From: Halobacillus massiliensis
GTDB taxonomy: Bacteria > Bacillota > Bacilli > Bacillales > Halobacillaceae
NCBI RefSeq assembly: GCF_900166625.1
Contig: NZ_LT800499.1
Location: 2,510,144-2,570,355 of the forward strand
Direction: 5' to 3'
DNA length: 60,212 bases
Under the pieces are notes generated by a model, which saw only the letters and a program-made list of their open reading frames with translations, did not search any database and was not told the origin of the DNA. Every line of letters begins with the position of its first letter. Positions within the stretch are counted from its first letter, which is position 1. This document shows, one piece after another, positions 36,117 through 44,859 of the stretch. A program made the position numbers and the translations under genes.

Positions 36117-36617
36117 ATGTTACGTAAATGGTTTCAAGAGCATTATAGTGCTGCAGTTTTATTAACTTTTATTCGATTTTATTTAGGGTTTGTCTGGATC
36201 AGTTCAGGTGCAGGAAAAATAACCGGTGGTTTTGATGCCAGCGGCTTTATCCAAGGGGCTATAGCAAAATCCCAAGGGCAAGAAGCCATTGTTCAAGGTT
36301 GGTGGGCCGCCTTTCTGGAGAAAGCAGCCTTACCTTACAGCGATTTGTTCAGCTTCCTCGTAATGTGGGGGGAAGTGCTTGTCGGATTAGCACTACTGTT
36401 AGGTCTATTTACAAAAACGGGTGCTTTCTTTGGAGCCGTTATGAATTTGGCATTTCTATTAAGTGGTACGATCAGCTCTAATCCAGAGATGCTCATTATG
36501 GCTGCATTGCTTCTTGCCGGTGGTATCAATACAAGCCGAATTGGACTCGAACCTTATGTGAAGCCTCCCTTCAATAAACCAAACATATTTAAAACTGAAC
36601 ATCAAAAAGCTTCTTAG
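36117..36617 (+). CDS. DoxX family membrane protein
   Basis: 166 residues with four hydrophobic segments. The RFYLGFVWISSGAGKITGGF start and WGEVLVGLALLLGLFTKTGA segment are typical DoxX signatures. Relatives include quinone-linked subunits and the CatD protein that protects against thiol-reactive catechols; the role here is unknown. AAGGAGG precedes ATG 36117. It is monocistronic with a terminator at 36616. Confidence 0.87.
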   Translation: MLRKWFQEHYSAAVLLTFIRFYLGFVWISSGAGKITGGFDASGFIQGAIAKSQGQEAIVQGWWAAFLEKAALPYSDLFSFLVMWGEVLVGLALLLGLFTKTGAFFGAVMNLAFLLSGTISSNPEMLIMAALLLAGGINTSRIGLEPYVKPPFNKPNIFKTEHQKAS

Positions 36618-36648
36618 CACAGCTTCCTTCAGCTGTGCTTTTTTATTT
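36614..36648 (+). terminator. Terminator after the DoxX gene
   Basis: Stem AGCACAGCT / AGCTGTGCT followed by six Ts. Confidence 0.9.
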
Positions 36649-36681
36649 TTAGCTTGGACCCGGCTGATTGGGCAAATCTTT

Positions 36682-36707
36682 GTTTGCAGAATTAATTTTT
36701 GAGGTAT
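36682..36707 (+). promoter_or_regulatory. Candidate sigma-B promoter of the rightward carotenoid operon
   Basis: GTTTGC (36682-36687), 14-base spacer, AGGTAT (36702-36707), close to the sigma-B pattern GTTTAA-N12-14-GGGTAT. It lies 87 bases before the first gene. Staphylococcus aureus crt genes are sigma-B controlled, which makes this worth noting. A TATGAT at 36705-36710 could instead be a sigma-A -10 box. Confidence 0.4.
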
Positions 36708-36793
36708 GATGAAAGAGTATCTCCCTTTACTTCTCACACTAATCCCTATCATAATACTATTCAATCTATCATGCATGAAGAGGAGCAGTACTT

Positions 36794-37558
36794 ATGCCTA
36801 CTTATATCTTTCGTTTCTTTATTATTTGGTACATATGTGGAGTGATAATTTTAAGCTTTGACATTTTGCCTAGCTGGTTGGAATGGGCAAACAGCGTATT
36901 CTTAATTACCGCCGGCTTAATTGGCGGTATTTATTTTACTCAGTTGTACGGTTGGATCCGGGGAACCATTTTCAGTCTGTTTGTTATTATAGTGAGTATT
37001 TACGTTGAGCATCTCGGAGTGAAGTCGGGCTTCCTCTTTGGGAATTACAGCTATGGAGAGAATTTCGGGTTGAAAATAGTCGATACTCCGATTACGATTG
37101 GGTTCGCCTGGCTTCTGATTATAGGGTGTTCTCATGAATTAGCTCGTGGAATAACGCAGCAATTGTCTTTAGTTTTTCAAAAGTTGACCTTCCTTTTTAC
37201 AGGCAGTTTAATAGCTGTAACTATGGATCTGATCCTTGACCCTGTTGCTTTTAAAGTACAGCAATACTGGATCTGGGATGAACCGGGAATTTACTATGAC
37301 ATTCCTTTCTCTAATTTCTTTGGGTGGTTTGTCTTATCTTTATTTTTCCATCTTCTCTCACTTATTGTGTTTAATAAGGAAGAGGCATGTTCAAAAACGT
37401 GGCATGGAAGAATGGCATTTATGTATGGAGCAATCATCTTTATGTTCAGTCTGCTTGCAGTAATTGGAGGAGTCGGCGGAGCCGCTCTTTTTGTATTCAT
37501 ATTAAGCATTATTTGGTACGGACTGTATGCATGGGGGAATAATTATGCTAAAAGCTAA
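36794..37558 (+). CDS. Carotenoid biosynthesis membrane protein, CruF-like hydratase
   Basis: 254-residue integral membrane protein with about seven hydrophobic segments. It contains EHLGVKSGFLFGNYSYGENFG, followed by MDLILDPVAFKVQQYWIW, both hallmarks of the CruF/bacterioruberin hydratase family, which adds water across an end double bond of a carotenoid. In C30 producers of the Planococcus/Halobacillus type a 5-hydroxy group is later glucosylated, which fits the glycosyltransferase two genes downstream. First gene of the rightward operon; its end overlaps the next gene by 14 bases. Confidence 0.85.
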   Translation: MPTYIFRFFIIWYICGVIILSFDILPSWLEWANSVFLITAGLIGGIYFTQLYGWIRGTIFSLFVIIVSIYVEHLGVKSGFLFGNYSYGENFGLKIVDTPITIGFAWLLIIGCSHELARGITQQLSLVFQKLTFLFTGSLIAVTMDLILDPVAFKVQQYWIWDEPGIYYDIPFSNFFGWFVLSLFFHLLSLIVFNKEEACSKTWHGRMAFMYGAIIFMFSLLAVIGGVGGAALFVFILSIIWYGLYAWGNNYAKS

Positions 37559-38216
37559 GAAAAATAATACGCTCATGTGGGGCTTTACTCGTTATAACCG
37601 GCAATTTATCCGGAGAAACTTTGAAAACATTTACATTCGTTGTGAAAGTAATCAGCGACTGAATAAAAAAAAATTATTTATCGCAAATCATTCCAGCTGG
37701 TGGGACTCCCTTGTTATTTACTTTTTAAATGACCAGGTTATACAATCGGATGCTTATGGAATGATGCATAAGGAAGGCATGGAACGCTTTCCATTTTTTC
37801 GTGGGATTGGAGTCTACTCTGTAGATTCAAAAGACCGCAATCATCTATTAGAATCTCTTCGTTACAGCTGTGACCTGCTAAACAACAATAAAACCGTCTG
37901 GATTTTCCCGCAGGGTGAAGAACAGCATTTAGAAAAACGTCCCCTTCACTTTTCAAATGGAATTTCTTATATTATTCAAAACTCAAAGGAGATCGAGGTA
38001 GTTCCGGTATCTATCTACTATTCTTTTGGCCATACGAAAAAGCCGGATATTTATATTAATGTTGGATTCCCGGTAGAAACAACTAAGCTTATACCCCTGC
38101 AGCGCAAGGAAATCACAAGGTATTTGGAGAAAGTTTCTACCGAACAGTTAGACAGCCTGAAAGATTGTGTGATACAGGAACGCAACGACTTATTTATTAA
38201 TTTTGGAAGGAGCTGA
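37545..38216 (+). CDS. PlsC-type acyltransferase of the carotenoid operon
   Basis: 223-residue lysophosphatidate-acyltransferase-like protein. The HX4D catalytic motif is NHSSWWDS, and the second block is IFPQGEEQ. A hydrophobic membrane anchor is lacking at the N-terminus. In S. aureus an acyltransferase (CrtO) adds the last fatty acyl group to the sugar of staphyloxanthin; an equivalent role is inferred here from position beside a glycosyltransferase. Start ATG 37545, after GGGGGAAT, overlaps the hydratase gene by 14 bases. A phospholipid role cannot be excluded. Confidence 0.8.
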   Translation: MLKAKKNNTLMWGFTRYNRQFIRRNFENIYIRCESNQRLNKKKLFIANHSSWWDSLVIYFLNDQVIQSDAYGMMHKEGMERFPFFRGIGVYSVDSKDRNHLLESLRYSCDLLNNNKTVWIFPQGEEQHLEKRPLHFSNGISYIIQNSKEIEVVPVSIYYSFGHTKKPDIYINVGFPVETTKLIPLQRKEITRYLEKVSTEQLDSLKDCVIQERNDLFINFGRS

Positions 38217-38223
38217 AAAAGTT

Positions 38224-39330
38224 ATGGTCTTAACTCTAGCTTTAATTGTTACTATACTGCTTAATGTCTGGACAGTCATTAACAGCTTCTTTCTGCCTTC
38301 CCTTGAACGTTCTAAACCGATTATTCATAAGCCGCTCGTCTCTTTTTTAATTCCGCTGCGTAACGAAGAAGCTCAAATCGAGGGCCTGATTGAATCTTTA
38401 AAAAAAGTCACATATGAAGAGGTAGAATTTTTATTATTGGATGATCATTCAGATGATCGTACAGCTGAGCTACTAAAAAAATACATAAACTCAGACAGCA
38501 GGTTTTCCATCCTGAAGGGAAAGCCACTGCCATCTGACTGGAATGGAAAGGTACATGCCTGTCACCAGCTTTCCCTGAAGGCTGAAGGAGAATACTTTTT
38601 ATTTCTAGATGCAGATGCACGGGTAGCTCCTGCTATCATAGAGCGCAGCCTGTTGACGCTGTGGAAATATGATGCTTCTATGCTGAGCGGATTTCCGAAC
38701 TATCCGAGCAGCAGTTTTTTATCTCACATGCTCGTTCCTTTGCAGCATATGGTCGTCTGGCTGCATCTTCCGTTAATGATGGCTAATTACACTACAAAAC
38801 CTGCGTTTACAGCGGCATGCGGAATTTTTATCTTTATAAAGAAAGAGGCTTATGAAGCTATAGGCGGCCACGAGTCTGTCCGCTCCTCCTTAGTCGAGGA
38901 TGTCCATATTGCGCGGGAGGTAAAAAAACACGGTTATAAAATGGTGTTGTGTAACATTACGGATTCGGTTATCTCTTATATGTATGACTCCTCCAAAGAA
39001 ACGTGGGAAGGTTTTAAAAAGAACATCTTCACAGGGCTGGGGCGCTCCAGCTTTCTAGCATTTAGTTTAATGATTTTTTACTTTTTCCTGTTCCTCTTCC
39101 CTGTCATTCTTGCAGCGTACGGGGCAGTTGCCGGACAGTGGCTGTTTCTACTTCCTTTTTTATTAAACGTATCTTTTAAGATGTATATAGACGTTAGAAC
39201 AAAACACCCTTTATGGCTTTCCTGGCTGCTGCCCGTGTCTATTATCTGTTTAATTTCGATAATTGCGGCATCCATGATGGTCAGCTTGAAAGGGAAATCC
39301 TATCAATGGAAAGGCAGGTCATACGATTGA
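38224..39330 (+). CDS. crtQ: Family 2 glycosyltransferase, CrtQ-like
   Basis: 368-residue membrane-associated glycosyltransferase. An N-terminal membrane segment is followed by SFLIPLRNEE, LLLDDHSDDRT and the catalytic-metal region FLFLDADARV. The acceptor-side SLVEDVHIAREV lies near residue 225. The last 110 residues hold three hydrophobic segments, and the protein ends YQWKGRSYD, like the WKGRQY ending of S. aureus CrtQ. It should attach glucose to the hydroxyl or carboxyl end of the C30 carotenoid. TTG 38203 overlaps the previous gene; ATG 38224 after GGAAGGAG is preferred though the spacing is long. Confidence 0.85.
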   Translation: MVLTLALIVTILLNVWTVINSFFLPSLERSKPIIHKPLVSFLIPLRNEEAQIEGLIESLKKVTYEEVEFLLLDDHSDDRTAELLKKYINSDSRFSILKGKPLPSDWNGKVHACHQLSLKAEGEYFLFLDADARVAPAIIERSLLTLWKYDASMLSGFPNYPSSSFLSHMLVPLQHMVVWLHLPLMMANYTTKPAFTAACGIFIFIKKEAYEAIGGHESVRSSLVEDVHIAREVKKHGYKMVLCNITDSVISYMYDSSKETWEGFKKNIFTGLGRSSFLAFSLMIFYFFLFLFPVILAAYGAVAGQWLFLLPFLLNVSFKMYIDVRTKHPLWLSWLLPVSIICLISIIAASMMVSLKGKSYQWKGRSYD

Positions 39331-40796
39331 AAACAATTATTGTAGGTGGAGGACTAGGCGGGTTATCGGCCGCTGTCACCCTTGCCAAAGAGGGTGGAGA
39401 AGTTCAACTCTTTGAAAAAAATCAGCACTTTGGCGGTAAAATGATGCCAGTTGATGAAGACGGCTATCATTTTGACTTTGGACCAAATACAATTACAATG
39501 CCCCATGTCTTTCAAAATGTAATGGATCAAGGAGGAATTCCACGTTCTGCCCAGCCTGATTTTCATAAGATTAAGACACATACAAGAAATCAGTGGGAGA
39601 ATGGTGAAGTATTTGACCTTTCTACAGATCCTTCTTACATGAAGCAGCAGCTTTATAAATTAGATCCTAAAGCCGAGGATCTCTATGGTGATTTCTTACA
39701 GGAAGTAGAGCGTCTTTATCAATTATCAAACCGCTATTTTATTAACCGTACGTTTCTTAATTTTAAAGACTATTTATCAGGAGAATTAGCTCTTAATACG
39801 ATGAAAGTCCGGCCCTTTCAATCCATGAACGCTTTTTTTTCTAAATATTTCACCCACCCGGGTATTATTCAGGCTCTCAACAGATATGCGACGTATATTG
39901 GTTCAAATCCTTATCGCTGTCCAGCCACGTTTGCGATGATTGCCCACCTTGAATTAAATGACGGAGTTTACTATGTAAGAGGCGGTAATACGAAGATTGC
40001 TGAAGCTTTCGTCAAAGCTGCCAGAAACCAGGGTGCACAGCTTCATTCAGGTCATGAAGTTACAAGACTACTAACAACGGACGACAAGATAACCGGTGTG
40101 CAGCTTAAAAACGATGAAAAAATATCAGCTGATCAGGTAATAATAAATGGCGATCTGTTACATACAATTCCCCGGCTGCTTGAAAAAGAGCAAAGAAGAT
40201 CTCTTAATGATGATATTATCGAAAATTACGATCCTTCTGTTTCCGCTTTTGTTATTATGGCAGGCTTAAACACCCGGATGGAAAATCTTCACCACCACCA
40301 TGTGCTTTTTTCATCCGATTACAGGAAAGAATTTAATGAACTTACTCAAGGGAAGTACAGCAGTGACCCTACAATTTATATCTCGACATCTTCTAAAACT
40401 GACCGGGAGGTTTCTCCACATGGAGATAATTGCTTTATCCTCGTGAATGCACCAGCAGTGGGAGGCGGAGGCATAAACAAGGAGTCTTACAAAAAATTGA
40501 TCTATGAGAAATTACAGAGAAACCAAATCAACATAGAAAAATACCTATCCTATGAAAAAGTAGTGGCCCCCCAGGATATAGAATCAAAGTTTTATTCGTT
40601 TAAAGGGGCTTTGTATGGGCCCAGTTCCAATACTAAGCTCCAGGCATTCAGAAGGCCTTACAATCGATCACAGGACTTTTCAAACCTCTATTTCTGCGGA
40701 GGAAGTACACATCCTGGCGGCGGTTCTCCCATGGTCGTTTTAAGTGGACAGAACATTGCCAACTATCTTGTAGGGAAAAAAACTTCTTATGAATAA
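39327..40796 (+). CDS. crtP: CrtP-like C30 carotenoid oxygenase (CrtN superfamily)
   Basis: 489-residue FAD protein. The N-terminal dinucleotide motif is VGGGLGGLSAAV, then FDFGPNTITMPH; YIGSNPYRCPA lies in the middle and the FAD-closing GGSTHPGGGSPMVVLSGQ at the end. These fit S. aureus CrtP (diaponeurosporene oxygenase, terminal methyl to aldehyde) better than CrtN. Last gene of the rightward operon. Start TTG 39327 overlaps the glycosyltransferase stop (TTGA); ATG 39306 is the alternative. A CrtNc-type role is also possible. Confidence 0.82.
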   Translation: MKTIIVGGGLGGLSAAVTLAKEGGEVQLFEKNQHFGGKMMPVDEDGYHFDFGPNTITMPHVFQNVMDQGGIPRSAQPDFHKIKTHTRNQWENGEVFDLSTDPSYMKQQLYKLDPKAEDLYGDFLQEVERLYQLSNRYFINRTFLNFKDYLSGELALNTMKVRPFQSMNAFFSKYFTHPGIIQALNRYATYIGSNPYRCPATFAMIAHLELNDGVYYVRGGNTKIAEAFVKAARNQGAQLHSGHEVTRLLTTDDKITGVQLKNDEKISADQVIINGDLLHTIPRLLEKEQRRSLNDDIIENYDPSVSAFVIMAGLNTRMENLHHHHVLFSSDYRKEFNELTQGKYSSDPTIYISTSSKTDREVSPHGDNCFILVNAPAVGGGGINKESYKKLIYEKLQRNQINIEKYLSYEKVVAPQDIESKFYSFKGALYGPSSNTKLQAFRRPYNRSQDFSNLYFCGGSTHPGGGSPMVVLSGQNIANYLVGKKTSYE

Positions 40797-40841
40797 TAAA
40801 AAAGCAAATTATTGCATATCAGCAATAATTTGCTTTTTTTG
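40796..40841. terminator. Shared bidirectional terminator of the two carotenoid operons
   Basis: Eighteen-base stem AAAAAAGCAAATTATTGC / GCAATAATTTGCTTTTTT (40798-40815 with 40822-40839). It overlaps the last codons of crtM, so one hairpin serves both convergent operons. Confidence 0.92.
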
Positions 40842-41645
40842 CTTGTCCGTCACATAGTTTTTCTGGCGAAAAACGTCATAGTGGTTATCCCGTACGGAAG
40901 GAAGAATAGCCCTATAAAGATAAGCTGCTCCTTTTACAGGGGTCCGGGAATATACCGGGTATCCGGGAAGGGAAGCAATCCCGCTTGTGTAATAGTACTC
41001 AGCATCTGCAGCAAGCTCTTCCCATAAGTTAATAAAAGAAGCATTAACCATTTTATTTTGTAAATTTTCATAGGAATAATGGTGTCGTTCAAACAGTTCT
41101 GCGGGAATATAAACTCGGTCTCTCTCTAAATCCTCACCCACGTCTCTGAGAATGTTTGTTATTTGCATCGCATAGCCAAGGTGGATGGCTCCTTGGCGAA
41201 GTTCTTTCTCACGTCCGGGGGCAATCGCAGGGAGAAGCATTAAACCAACAGTACTTGCCACATGATAACAGTAGTCCAGAAGATCTTCTTTAGTTTGAAT
41301 AATTCGTGGTTCAAGATCCATCCACTGCCCCTCAATCTGTTCATAAAAAGGGGCGGGGTCCATAGGAAACTTCTTAAATACATCGGCCAATGCTACCCAT
41401 GAAGGATGTCGGCTCTGGAGCCTGCCTTGAATAAACTGATCAAATTCCTGGGTAAACTTCGTTAACTCTTTTTTAGGATGTGCCCCTTCATCAACGATAT
41501 CATCAACTTGCCGGCAAAATGTATAGATAGCCCATACTGCTTGCTTCTGGTCTTTTGGGAGCAGGGAAAAAGCTTTGGAAAATGTTTTGGAGTGTTTATA
41601 AATAATACTTTTGCAATATTGGTAGGCTTCGTTTAATTCCGTCAT
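40809..41645 (-). CDS. crtM: 4,4'-Diapophytoene synthase
   Basis: 278-residue squalene/phytoene synthase-family enzyme condensing two farnesyl diphosphates to C30 diapophytoene. The two Asp-rich motifs are RQVDDIVDE (about residue 49) and [11 protein letters not shown] (about 165). The [12 protein letters not shown] segment is typical. C30 rather than C40 specificity is inferred from the neighbouring CrtN/CrtP-type genes. GTG 41654 opens the frame inside the previous gene, while ATG 41645 follows GAGGTGG by five bases and leaves one base after the previous stop. Last gene of the leftward operon. Confidence 0.93.
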
Positions 41646-41646
41646 C

Positions 41647-43113
41647 TTATCCACCTCGCTTATAATAACGACTATTATTAACTGAGGGCTTTAAGTGGTC
41701 TGTCAGCAGCTTTGCCCCTTGCATTACAATAGGTATACCACCGCCTGGATGAATGGATGCCCCTACAGCAAAAACATTATCTAAAGGATATGGCTGTAGC
41801 TGAGGGCGAAAAACACCTGACTGAAACAGTGTAGGAGCTATTCCAAAGCTCCCTCCCTGAAACAACCCATCCCTTTCTGCTTCTACCGGTGTGCGAACCT
41901 TCATCCATTCCACATGATTCCTCAGATCCGTAAACCCGCGTTTTTCCATTTGCTCAATTACCTTTTCCACGAGAGCATCTTTTTTTGTCCAATCTGCCTG
42001 AGACGGTACAGGGATTAATGTGTATAATACCCCTTTGCCCTCCGGAGCTAAAGAGGAATCAATAACAGACGGATGAAACGTGTAGAATGAGGGATCATCG
42101 GGAAGAACTTTTTCTTGGAAAACCTGCTTCATATGACGATCAAAATCATCAGACATAAAGAATTGATGAATGGTATTTTCATAGTACACTTTATTTAGCC
42201 CCATATAAATCAAAATACACCCTGATGAGGAAGTATACCTGCGGCGCAGCTGTTTATGAGCAGGAAATAAACGGTCCATCAGAGGAAAATCTCCGTTAAG
42301 CACTACTCGATCTACTGAATAGTCTTGTCCATTTGCTTGAAGACCCGTGATTTTCCGTTTGTTAATTTGGATGCTTTGGACTTCACAGTTTGTTTCAATC
42401 TGAACGCCCCGTTTCTCTAACTCCTCTGCAATAATTTCAACAAGCCGGGCATAGCCTCCTTTCATGTACCAAACGCCGTGCTTATGCTCACTGTAAGATA
42501 CGAGAGAGTACATAGCGGGAGACTGTTCAGGATGTCCGCCAATATAGAGAGTTTGGAGTGTATATGCTTCTACTAGCCTTTCATCCTTAAAATAATTTCT
42601 CATCATCTTTTTCACATTTTGATAAGCCTTCAGTCTCATTAATGTTTGCAAATTTTTCTTAGTAAAGAAGGTTTTTTTATTAACAAATGATTTTTCTAAA
42701 AAATGTTCTTTCCCTTGAAGAAAACGGTACTTCATATCCTCTAAAAATCGAAGATAGCCTGCTTCATTACCGGGAAATTTACGCTTAATTTCTTCCAGCT
42801 GTTTTTCCAGATCAGCATATTTCGTATAGCTTTTTCCATCTTTAAAACGGATATGATATAAAGGTTCACAGGGAACAATTGGGATTCTGTCGCGGCTGAT
42901 TCCTCCCTCTTCAAGAATTGAAAGCAGCATTTCAGGCAGAAGTACAATTGTAGGACCCTGGTCAATTTTATATTCACCAAATCTTTCATATGTCAGCCTG
43001 CCGCCCAGGTGGTCATTCTTTTCTAAGATTTTGACGTTTTCATTCCTATTAGAAAGCAGCAATGCTGTTATAAGACCTCCAATACCTCCTCCTACAATCG
43101 TCACTTCTGACAT
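41647..43113 (-). CDS. CrtN-type carotenoid desaturase/oxidase, second copy
   Basis: 488-residue FAD-dependent amine-oxidase-fold enzyme. The N-terminus is [20 protein letters not shown], then [39 protein letters not shown] resembles the FQTLYIG block of S. aureus CrtN. The FAD-closing motif is [20 protein letters not shown]. Its ATG shares one base with the stop of the upstream crtN. Two CrtN-like enzymes in a row suggest one extends desaturation (towards diapolycopene) or oxidises an end group, as for the CrtNb/CrtNc proteins of pigmented bacilli. The exact step cannot be read from sequence. Confidence 0.85.
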
Positions 43114-44597
43114 TATAATGCCACCTCTTTTCTTTCTTTGATCCAATTCGCCGTGATTCGTGCTGATTCGAGTATCGTCGGCAGTCCGCTTCCCGGATGT
43201 GTTCCTCCCCCAACAAGCCAGCAGTGGTCCAGTTCTTGGAATCGATTATGAGGGCGGAAATACATCATTTGTGAGAGCTGATGCGCCATACTGAAAGTTG
43301 CTCCCTTGTGGACATAATGATCGGTTTCCCACTGCAGAGGAGTTAACACTTTTTCTTCTTTAATATGATTTCTAATATCTTTAAAGCCTGTTTTCTCCTC
43401 TACTTCGTTAAGAACCAATTCCCGAAATGCTGCTTCTTTTTCATCCCAGTCTATTTCTGCATAGTTATTGGGAACCGGTGCTAAAATGTATAGAGCTGAA
43501 TGTCCCTCAGGCGCCAGTGTAGAATCTGTTACACTTGCGTTATGGATATAAATGGACGGCTCTTTTGACAGCACCATATCTTTTGTCATTTCTTCTACGT
43601 TTTTTTTATAATCCTTAGCAAATAAAATCGTATGGTGGGGCATGTCATACTTACGATCGACTCCGAGATAAATCATAAATGTCGAGCAGGAATACTTCCG
43701 CTTATCCAATTTCTCTTTAGTGAATTTCTTTAATACGCCATCTTCCACAAAGCGGCTCATCGAATGGGCGAAATCAGCATTTACGATTACTTCATCGGCC
43801 GGTTCTGTTCGGCCGTTTTCAAGCCTGACCCCCCTTACTTTTTTTCCTTCTAGCACAAATTCCTTTACACCCTGATTTAAATGAAGCGTTCCGCCAAGTT
43901 CTTCAAAGGCTTTTGCCATTGCCTTTGATAATTGATTAACGCCACCTACAGGATGAAAAACTCCATACTCATGCTCCATATAAGAAAGGATAGAAAAGGC
44001 GCCGGGACACTCCCACGGAGACATACCTAGATATTTTGCCTGAAATGTAAAAGCTATTTTCAATTGTTCATCATTAAAATATTCCGATAAAACGTCATAT
44101 ACTGATTTCCCAATTGATAGCTGTGGCAATGCCTTTAACGCTCGCGGACTGAGATAATCGACGAGCCGATGATGCCTCGTCTGAAGCAGAGGTAGAAGTG
44201 CATTCATTTTTTTACGAGTATCTTTCATAAACCGCAAATATCCTTCTTCATTGCCCGGGAAATGTCTTTCAATTACTTCAAGCATCTTATCCCTGTCTCG
44301 ATACATCGGGACTCTCCGATCCTCAAACTGAAGCTCGTACATAGGGGACAGCTCAACTAAATCTATATAATCATGCAGATTTTTTCCTGCCTGTTGAAAA
44401 ATTTCTTCAGCAATATGCACCATACTCAAAAAGGTAGGTCCTATATCAAAAGTATATGGGCCAAGCTGGAAATGACCGTTCCTTCCACCTGGATAGCTTT
44501 TCTTTTCATACACATGAACGTTATAACCTTCTGCAGCAAGTAGCATAGCAGAAGCTAAGCCTCCAGGTCCTGCTCCGATAATGATAATTTCCTTCAT
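43113..44597 (-). CDS. crtN: Diapophytoene desaturase, CrtN type
   Basis: 494-residue FAD enzyme inserting conjugated double bonds into diapophytoene. N-terminal IIGAGPGGLASAMLLAAEGY is followed by GGRNGHFQLGPYTFDIGPT. FQAKYLGMSPWECPGAFS and SYMEHEYGVFHPVGGV match the CrtN/CrtI mid-block, and GGGTHPGSGLPTILESARI closes the FAD site. First gene of the leftward operon crtN-crtN2-crtM. GGGGG stands seven bases before ATG 44597. The promoter lies inside an array of 11-bp repeats. Confidence 0.87.
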   Translation of the reverse strand: MKEIIIIGAGPGGLASAMLLAAEGYNVHVYEKKSYPGGRNGHFQLGPYTFDIGPTFLSMVHIAEEIFQQAGKNLHDYIDLVELSPMYELQFEDRRVPMYRDRDKMLEVIERHFPGNEEGYLRFMKDTRKKMNALLPLLQTRHHRLVDYLSPRALKALPQLSIGKSVYDVLSEYFNDEQLKIAFTFQAKYLGMSPWECPGAFSILSYMEHEYGVFHPVGGVNQLSKAMAKAFEELGGTLHLNQGVKEFVLEGKKVRGVRLENGRTEPADEVIVNADFAHSMSRFVEDGVLKKFTKEKLDKRKYSCSTFMIYLGVDRKYDMPHHTILFAKDYKKNVEEMTKDMVLSKEPSIYIHNASVTDSTLAPEGHSALYILAPVPNNYAEIDWDEKEAAFRELVLNEVEEKTGFKDIRNHIKEEKVLTPLQWETDHYVHKGATFSMAHQLSQMMYFRPHNRFQELDHCWLVGGGTHPGSGLPTILESARITANWIKERKEVAL

Positions 44598-44613
44598 TAA
44601 CCTACCCCCAAAT

Positions 44614-44658
44614 CATATACAAATGTTATACAAAAATTATACAAAGGTTATATAAAAG
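44614..44658. promoter_or_regulatory. Four 11-bp-phased operator repeats upstream of crtN (CarH/LitR-like)
   Basis: The core ATAYAAA occurs at 44617, 44628, 44639 and 44650, each exactly 11 bases from the next and in the same orientation; three of the four read ATACAAA. In the crtN direction each unit is TTTGTATAAnn. Head-to-tail 11-bp units containing TGTA/TGTATA are the known binding geometry of CarH-type MerR photoreceptors at carotenoid promoters. No carH/litR gene lies in the window, so the regulator is inferred. Confidence 0.75.
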
Positions 44659-44664
44659 TTGCAA
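44636..44664 (-). promoter_or_regulatory. Sigma-A promoter of crtN-crtN2-crtM
   Basis: TTGCAA (44659-44664), 17-base spacer, TATAAT (44636-44641) on the minus strand. The -10 box lies in the third operator repeat and the fourth fills the spacer, so a bound repressor would block RNA polymerase. Confidence 0.8.
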
Positions 44665-44859
44665 TTAATCCTTCTCTTCCAATGTGTTCCTTTAAATTTC
44701 TATCTTTTACCATACCCTTCACTTTTAACCAATAAGCGTTTGTGTTATTCGTCCTTCATAATTTTATTTATTGAAAAAAAAAGAAAACTGGGTAATCCCC
44801 CATACCCTCCGCTTGTACCCATCATAGGCTGAGAATGTAAGATAACAGGAGGTGACATT

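Follow-up and report, generated by a model that had tools for sequence, protein, structure and literature searches.

A predicted CarH operator at the crtN promoter of Halobacillus massiliensis and a related array before an mgsR-like gene

A tandem array of 11-bp units upstream of the carotenoid gene crtN in Halobacillus massiliensis is very likely the operator of CarH, an adenosylcobalamin (AdoCbl) photoreceptor acting in trans that would repress crtN in the dark and release it in the light. The array occupies positions 44612–44655 of the stretch of DNA that we analysed (60,212 bp; hereafter the window), and the same CarH very probably also controls an mgsR-like gene for a regulator of the Spx family. 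An earlier sequence-only reading of the window had proposed a CarH-type site from the coincidence of repeat geometry, repeat sequence and target genes, and the CarH homologue and the conserved arrays described below support that proposal.

The array is read on the plus strand as four head-to-tail 11-bp units (ATCATATACAA / ATGTTATACAA / AAATTATACAA / AGGTTATATAA) whose cores are TATACA at 44616, 44627 and 44638 and TATATA at 44649, a spacing of exactly 11 bp. On the crtN strand the units read as TTTGTATAA-type sequences, and the TnnACA orientation as published falls on the strand opposite crtN. Published descriptions of CarH give head-to-tail 11-bp TnnACA repeats as its signature (PMC8156234; PMC9304148), and the latter source writes the repeat as nnnnTnnACAn and defines both direct repeats and pseudo-repeats. 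By these definitions the crtN array comprises three direct repeats and one pseudo-repeat (TATATA), so that the exact phasing of the four copies first described is upheld whereas the fourth copy is only a pseudo-repeat. We took a CarH operator to consist of at least three tandem 11-bp TnnACA repeats, pseudo-repeats allowed, that overlap the -35 or -10 element of a carotenogenesis promoter; the crtN array has this number of repeats and holds the predicted -10 inside unit 3.

Pattern counts indicate that such an array is rare. The window has a single match to the triple TnnACA pattern at 11-bp spacing, where 100 shuffles average 0.01, and a single match to a four-unit TATAYAAA pattern with at most three mismatches, where shuffles average 0.00. 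Genome-wide, the three-unit TATAYAAA pattern with at most three mismatches finds the crtN array (in two registers) and one other place, and its backwards control finds 0 matches. The crtN upstream region scores 3.4, a value reached by 0 of 5000 single-base shuffles; 38 of 5000 reach at least 2.4 and 180 reach at least 2.0, in shuffles that keep single-base and not dinucleotide composition. Scores of at least 2.4 are also found in 16 of 281 control upstream regions, a set that includes loci chosen for their arrays, so the shuffles are the cleaner control.

The predicted crtN promoter, TTGCAA-17-TATAAT, lies on the minus strand at 44636–44664, with its -35 element at 44664–44659, a 17-bp spacer and its -10 element at 44641–44636. 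The spacer falls mostly in units 3 and 4 and the -35 lies outside the array, 3 bp past unit 4; the array, initially read as covering the sigma-A promoter, thus extends over the -10 and the spacer without reaching the -35. The promoter matches the consensus at 10 of 12 positions, which is not significant alone (mean 1.2 in shuffles), and is the only promoter-like site between 44560 and 44900. Many relatives show a TATAAT or TATACT -10 in the same register; the -35 can be seen in just the closest of them. A GCACATTG-type block (GAACACATTGG here) was also observed on the minus strand at 44679–44689, where it precedes the crtN -35 by about 15 bp; by eye a block of this type stands upstream of crtN in most loci of the Halobacillus group.

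The gene order crtN-crtN2-crtM that had been read behind this promoter is borne out by profile matches. The first gene behind the operator is crtN, a CrtI/CrtN-family carotenoid desaturase of 494 aa (43113–44597, minus strand), followed on the same strand by a second CrtI/CrtN-family desaturase (41647–43113; start placed by eye at an internal ATG) and a crtM-like gene of the squalene/phytoene synthase family (40809–41654). A convergent gene run on the plus strand (36117–40796) ends in a third CrtI/CrtN-family desaturase, also identified by profile; its earlier genes, named by eye only, are DoxD-like, membrane, acyltransferase-like and glycosyltransferase-like. We considered CarH control of this run and found it unsupported, as the four upstream regions tested there score at most 2.0 and have no comparable array.

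The regulator that had been predicted to act in trans is encoded about 370 kb from the window. Within the genome (4.31 Mb in 2 contigs), five places match B12-binding domains and seven match MerR-type domains, and a single protein is both. This CarH-type protein of 303 aa (contig C2, 2139708–2140616) has MerR_1 (PF13411), B12-binding_2 (PF02607) and B12-binding (PF02310) domains, all above the Pfam cut-offs. CarH homologues are defined by a Wx9EH motif together with an ExHx2G-type cobalamin motif (PMC8156234). Both are found in the protein, Wx9EH, which caps the adenosyl group, as WENNRITSAHEH and the cobalamin motif ExHx2Gx41SxV/Tx22-27GG as ERHELG-x41-SCT-x26-GG (gaps counted by hand); an expression for the cobalamin motif that allowed slightly wider gaps also matched. 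The solved CarH structure 5c8d, at an E value of 5.4e-28, is among the two best matches to the protein. It scores 139.3 bits with the NCBIfam CarH equivalog NF052513, below that model's cut-off of 400. The genome also encodes a cobalamin adenosyltransferase (PF01923, 202.6 bits vs a cut-off of 24). The search for a MerR protein with a B12-binding domain, suggested at the outset, thus found a CarH homologue. Its gene sits before a mecA-like gene (named by eye), and its closest relatives on named contigs are from Halobacillus, at 69–73% identity.

By analogy with characterized CarH proteins, we infer that this protein forms an AdoCbl-dependent tetramer that is disassembled by light. In the dark, AdoCbl-loaded tetramers would sit on the tandem 11-bp repeats over the spacer, the -10 and the crtN transcript start and would shut out RNA polymerase. 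Light would split the Co-C bond and cause the tetramer to fall apart, and its loss would permit transcription of crtN and of the two genes that follow. Binding, dark repression and light release by CarH are predicted from the same likeness.

We next compared crtN upstream regions within a family set of 44 genomes, in which 32 crtN matches (1e-100) yielded 30 scored loci (G004 and G020 were without a locus). The array is kept in 20 of the 26 crtN upstream regions from genomes with an intact CarH, H. massiliensis included, with three phased repeats in 10 of the 20 and two repeats plus one or two pseudo-repeats in the other 10. The other six (G003, G006, G007, G016, G017 and G019) score at most 2.0 despite an intact CarH, so the expectation that relatives would share the phased array was borne out in most loci, while in these six it is weak or lost. 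Four crtN upstream regions come from CarH-less genomes of genus g5, and none has an array or scores above 1.4. Other genera with CarH also have an array before crtN, namely Anoxybacillus mongoliensis (1 mismatch), Pontibacillus chungwhensis and Bacillus tianshenii (2 each) and Bacillus suaedae (3), where gene neighbours were inspected among the 30 loci listed.

Genome-wide counts follow the same division. The 33 intact-CarH genomes average 6.76 array-like sites with at most three mismatches, 223 in all, and the other 11 average 1.36, 15 in all; the backwards control gives 41 (mean 1.24) and 12 (mean 1.09), respectively. A Mann-Whitney test separates the two groups by sites (p 1.1e-6) and not by backwards controls (p 0.85), the genomes being related so that p overstates independence. 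Near-palindromic arrays are counted on both strands in these totals, and G008 and G032 were put with the not-intact group after inspection; when genomes are grouped simply by whether they have a CarH ortholog, the means become 6.40 (35 genomes) and 1.56 (9), with p 3.1e-5. G001, whose distant CarH-like protein (32%) has Wx9EH and lacks the full cobalamin motif, was counted as not intact. Individual array positions were seen for all 11 genus members; genomes G034–G043 are otherwise represented by counts alone.

Loss of the photosensory motif provides a natural experiment on what the motif is for. Wx9EH is kept in 33 of the 35 family genomes with a CarH ortholog (at least 57% identity). The exceptions, G008 and G032, have a CarH that retains the MerR recognition helix without Wx9EH (in G008 also without the cobalamin motif), and these genomes lack a crtN match at 1e-100 and contain 0 and 1 array-like sites, respectively. 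Litchfieldia salsa, whose CarH motif reads ER and not EH, nevertheless has a zero-mismatch array; one such array in this species (L215, 1501–1529) lies upstream of a weakly SpoIIAA-like gene that falls below the Pfam cut-off. In G008 (L237), G032 (L238), L. salsa (L088) and Metabacillus bambusae (L091) the CarH ortholog combines an unimpaired DNA-binding helix with an altered Wx9EH or cobalamin motif, apparent cases in which photosensing was lost and the gene retained. All five g6 genomes (G039–G043) keep the CarH motifs yet lack a crtN match at 1e-100, and G039–G042 have no ortholog-level MgsR.

A second array in the H. massiliensis genome (C2:2016889–2016918) ends 34 bp before a gene for a 128-aa protein of the Spx/MgsR family. 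The protein passes TIGR01617 (119.9 bits vs 75.05) and also the Spx subfamily model PRK01655 (132.2 vs 123), and has the CxxC (CTSC) and RRPI motifs. The gene's neighbourhood is one that we take to resemble that of B. subtilis mgsR, and many relatives have a separate match at 42–45% identity. The roles of the CxxC and RRPI motifs in this family are described in PMC7235348. Three phased TnnACA repeats stand in 28 of the 30 mgsR-like upstream regions (that of H. massiliensis included); the remaining two are G031, with two repeats and one pseudo-repeat, and G032, where the array is degenerate. The best-conserved array in the family is thus that of the mgsR-like gene and not that of crtN. The sequence-only reading was right that crtN carries an array, but crtN is neither the sole nor the best-conserved putative target.

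A GTTTAA-N12-14-GGTTAT-type sequence, which resembles a sigma-B promoter, is found in 28 of the 30 mgsR-like upstream regions (absent in G023 and G043), and in 26 of the 30 loci it is present together with the array and overlaps it. These sigma-B-like sequences are suggestive only, because the same expression occurs four times in the 60-kb window. The genome does encode SigB (442.3 bits vs a cut-off of 315). Arrays with 0 or 1 mismatch also precede mgsR homologues of 57–65% identity in five of the 11 named genomes that we searched (Pontibacillus chungwhensis, P. salipaludis, Bacillus tianshenii, Thalassobacillus pellis and Anoxybacillus mongoliensis). The T. pellis upstream region is identical to that of G043, evidently the same genome, and so is not independent of the 30 loci. 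These five upstream regions show no sigma-B-like elements by eye, so the mgsR array seems to be conserved on its own account.

In many relatives CarH very probably also controls carH itself and a DUF4397-sortase gene pair. Of 29 carH upstream regions scored, 13 reach at least 2.4, 5 score 2.2 and 11 score at most 2.0; G020 stands outside this count (locus offset), with two sites listed near its carH. We found no support for carH autoregulation in H. massiliensis, where the carH promoter scores only 1.4 (1.8 in its close relative G033). Nine g3 genomes, chosen because the site had already been seen in them (G002, G006, G010 and G014–G019), have arrays with 0–3 mismatches before a DUF4397 gene adjoined by a sortase-like gene, the Pfam names deriving from one pair. 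A DUF4397 array is also found in one inspected g1 genome (G026, with no sortase within the examined piece), in P. salipaludis and, at three mismatches, in B. tianshenii; the pattern search of the H. massiliensis genome found none. CarH-type arrays of varying quality were observed at DUF4397 loci L165–L171, L174, L175, L197, L221 and L236, with a sortase-like neighbour in all but L197.

Further sites are individual. In Anoxybacillus mongoliensis a CarH-type array lies just upstream of a DNA photolyase gene (L229, 1500–1529). A third array in H. massiliensis (C2:1552332–1552361) is a candidate CarH site; it stands ahead of a 75-aa ORF that matches no Pfam family and of a glutaredoxin-like gene, and a corresponding array was seen in G033. 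Two more H. massiliensis sites at three mismatches (C2:216346 and C2:382489) look like chance matches; the backwards control gives 0 in this genome.

Other explanations of the crtN array can be weighed against these data. It is scarcely credible that the repeats arose only through the AT-richness of the promoter and selection on -10 elements: the region is AT-rich and its units hold TATAA-like strings overlapping the -10, but none of the 5000 shuffles attains the observed score, few attain even 2.4, and the mgsR arrays of other genera stand without visible sigma-B-like elements. We also consider it quite unlikely that another MerR-type or unrelated repressor occupies the array while CarH acts elsewhere. 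The genome has six further MerR-type matches that could supply such a protein, but array counts track an intact CarH, including where the photosensory motif is lost, and head-to-tail 11-bp TnnACA repeats are what the accounts in PMC8156234 and PMC9304148 give for CarH.

A last alternative accepts CarH as the crtN repressor and makes its natural signal something other than light, with the protein reporting AdoCbl level or serving as a plain repressor. The operator by itself cannot separate light from cobalamin. Against this highly improbable reading stand the retention of Wx9EH in nearly all orthologs, its loss in the two genomes that lack a crtN match and have almost no arrays, and the photolyase gene with the same type of array in Anoxybacillus. 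Light-released repression by CarH is the interpretation that we favour.

The closest described system is that of Bacillus megaterium, whose CarH/LitR and operators (Takano 2015; Fernandez-Zapata 2018) are cited in PMC9304148, PMC8156234 and PMC9758184. Both species pair a MerR-type, AdoCbl-binding protein that has both motifs with a carotenoid target. The operator layouts are also alike, as the B. megaterium (CarHBm) operators consist of four repeats or of three and a pseudo-repeat and overlap the -35 or -10 (PMC9304148), and the H. massiliensis array has three plus a pseudo-repeat over the -10. As far as these sources describe the B. megaterium system, H. massiliensis differs in having carH some 370 kb from the crt genes and belonging to a family whose most conserved putative target is mgsR-like. 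Thermus thermophilus CarH (PDB 5c8d/5c8e) shares domain order, motifs and 11-bp direct repeats (PMC8156234), and its phmmer match spans residues 7–239 of the 303-aa protein, whereas the Thermus operator has three repeats. Pseudomonas class II LitR provides a precedent for LitR/CarH-family control of light-induced genes beyond carotenoids, photolyase included, but has only one of the two B12-binding domains, and in P. mendocina it is the effector of a LOV photoreceptor (PMC9758184).

MgsR offers a parallel on the target side. B. subtilis mgsR is described as exclusively sigma-B-induced and positively autoregulated (Reder 2008, cited in PMC7235348), and blue light is among the stresses that trigger the B. 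subtilis sigma-B response (PMC7235348). The regulators here are likewise Spx-family CxxC proteins with a sigma-B-like sequence before most of their genes, but, unlike B. subtilis mgsR as described in PMC7235348, the genes here mostly have an 11-bp TnnACA array overlapping that sequence.

What began as a conjecture from sequence alone now has a regulator gene together with a predicted operator and targets, and forms a circuit of light and B12 control that can be tested. The predicted crtN operator is of a known type, and the predicted CarH-to-MgsR link is the new part. Our searches of the open-access literature, with LitR always combined with several further terms at once, found no link from CarH/LitR to MgsR/Spx beyond unrelated titles, and an earlier mention may exist. 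The conserved mgsR array suggests direct control of a redox stress regulator by a B12 photoreceptor. On balance we think it somewhat more likely than not that in Halobacillus and other Bacillaceae CarH heads a light-stress regulon and is not chiefly a pigment switch. CarH would directly gate mgsR through an operator fused to a sigma-B-type promoter, such that the MgsR branch would need light (or loss of AdoCbl) as well as sigma-B, and the carotenoid genes, carH, the DUF4397-sortase pair and in some species photolyase would be co-members. The light response of these bacteria may thus reach well beyond pigment.
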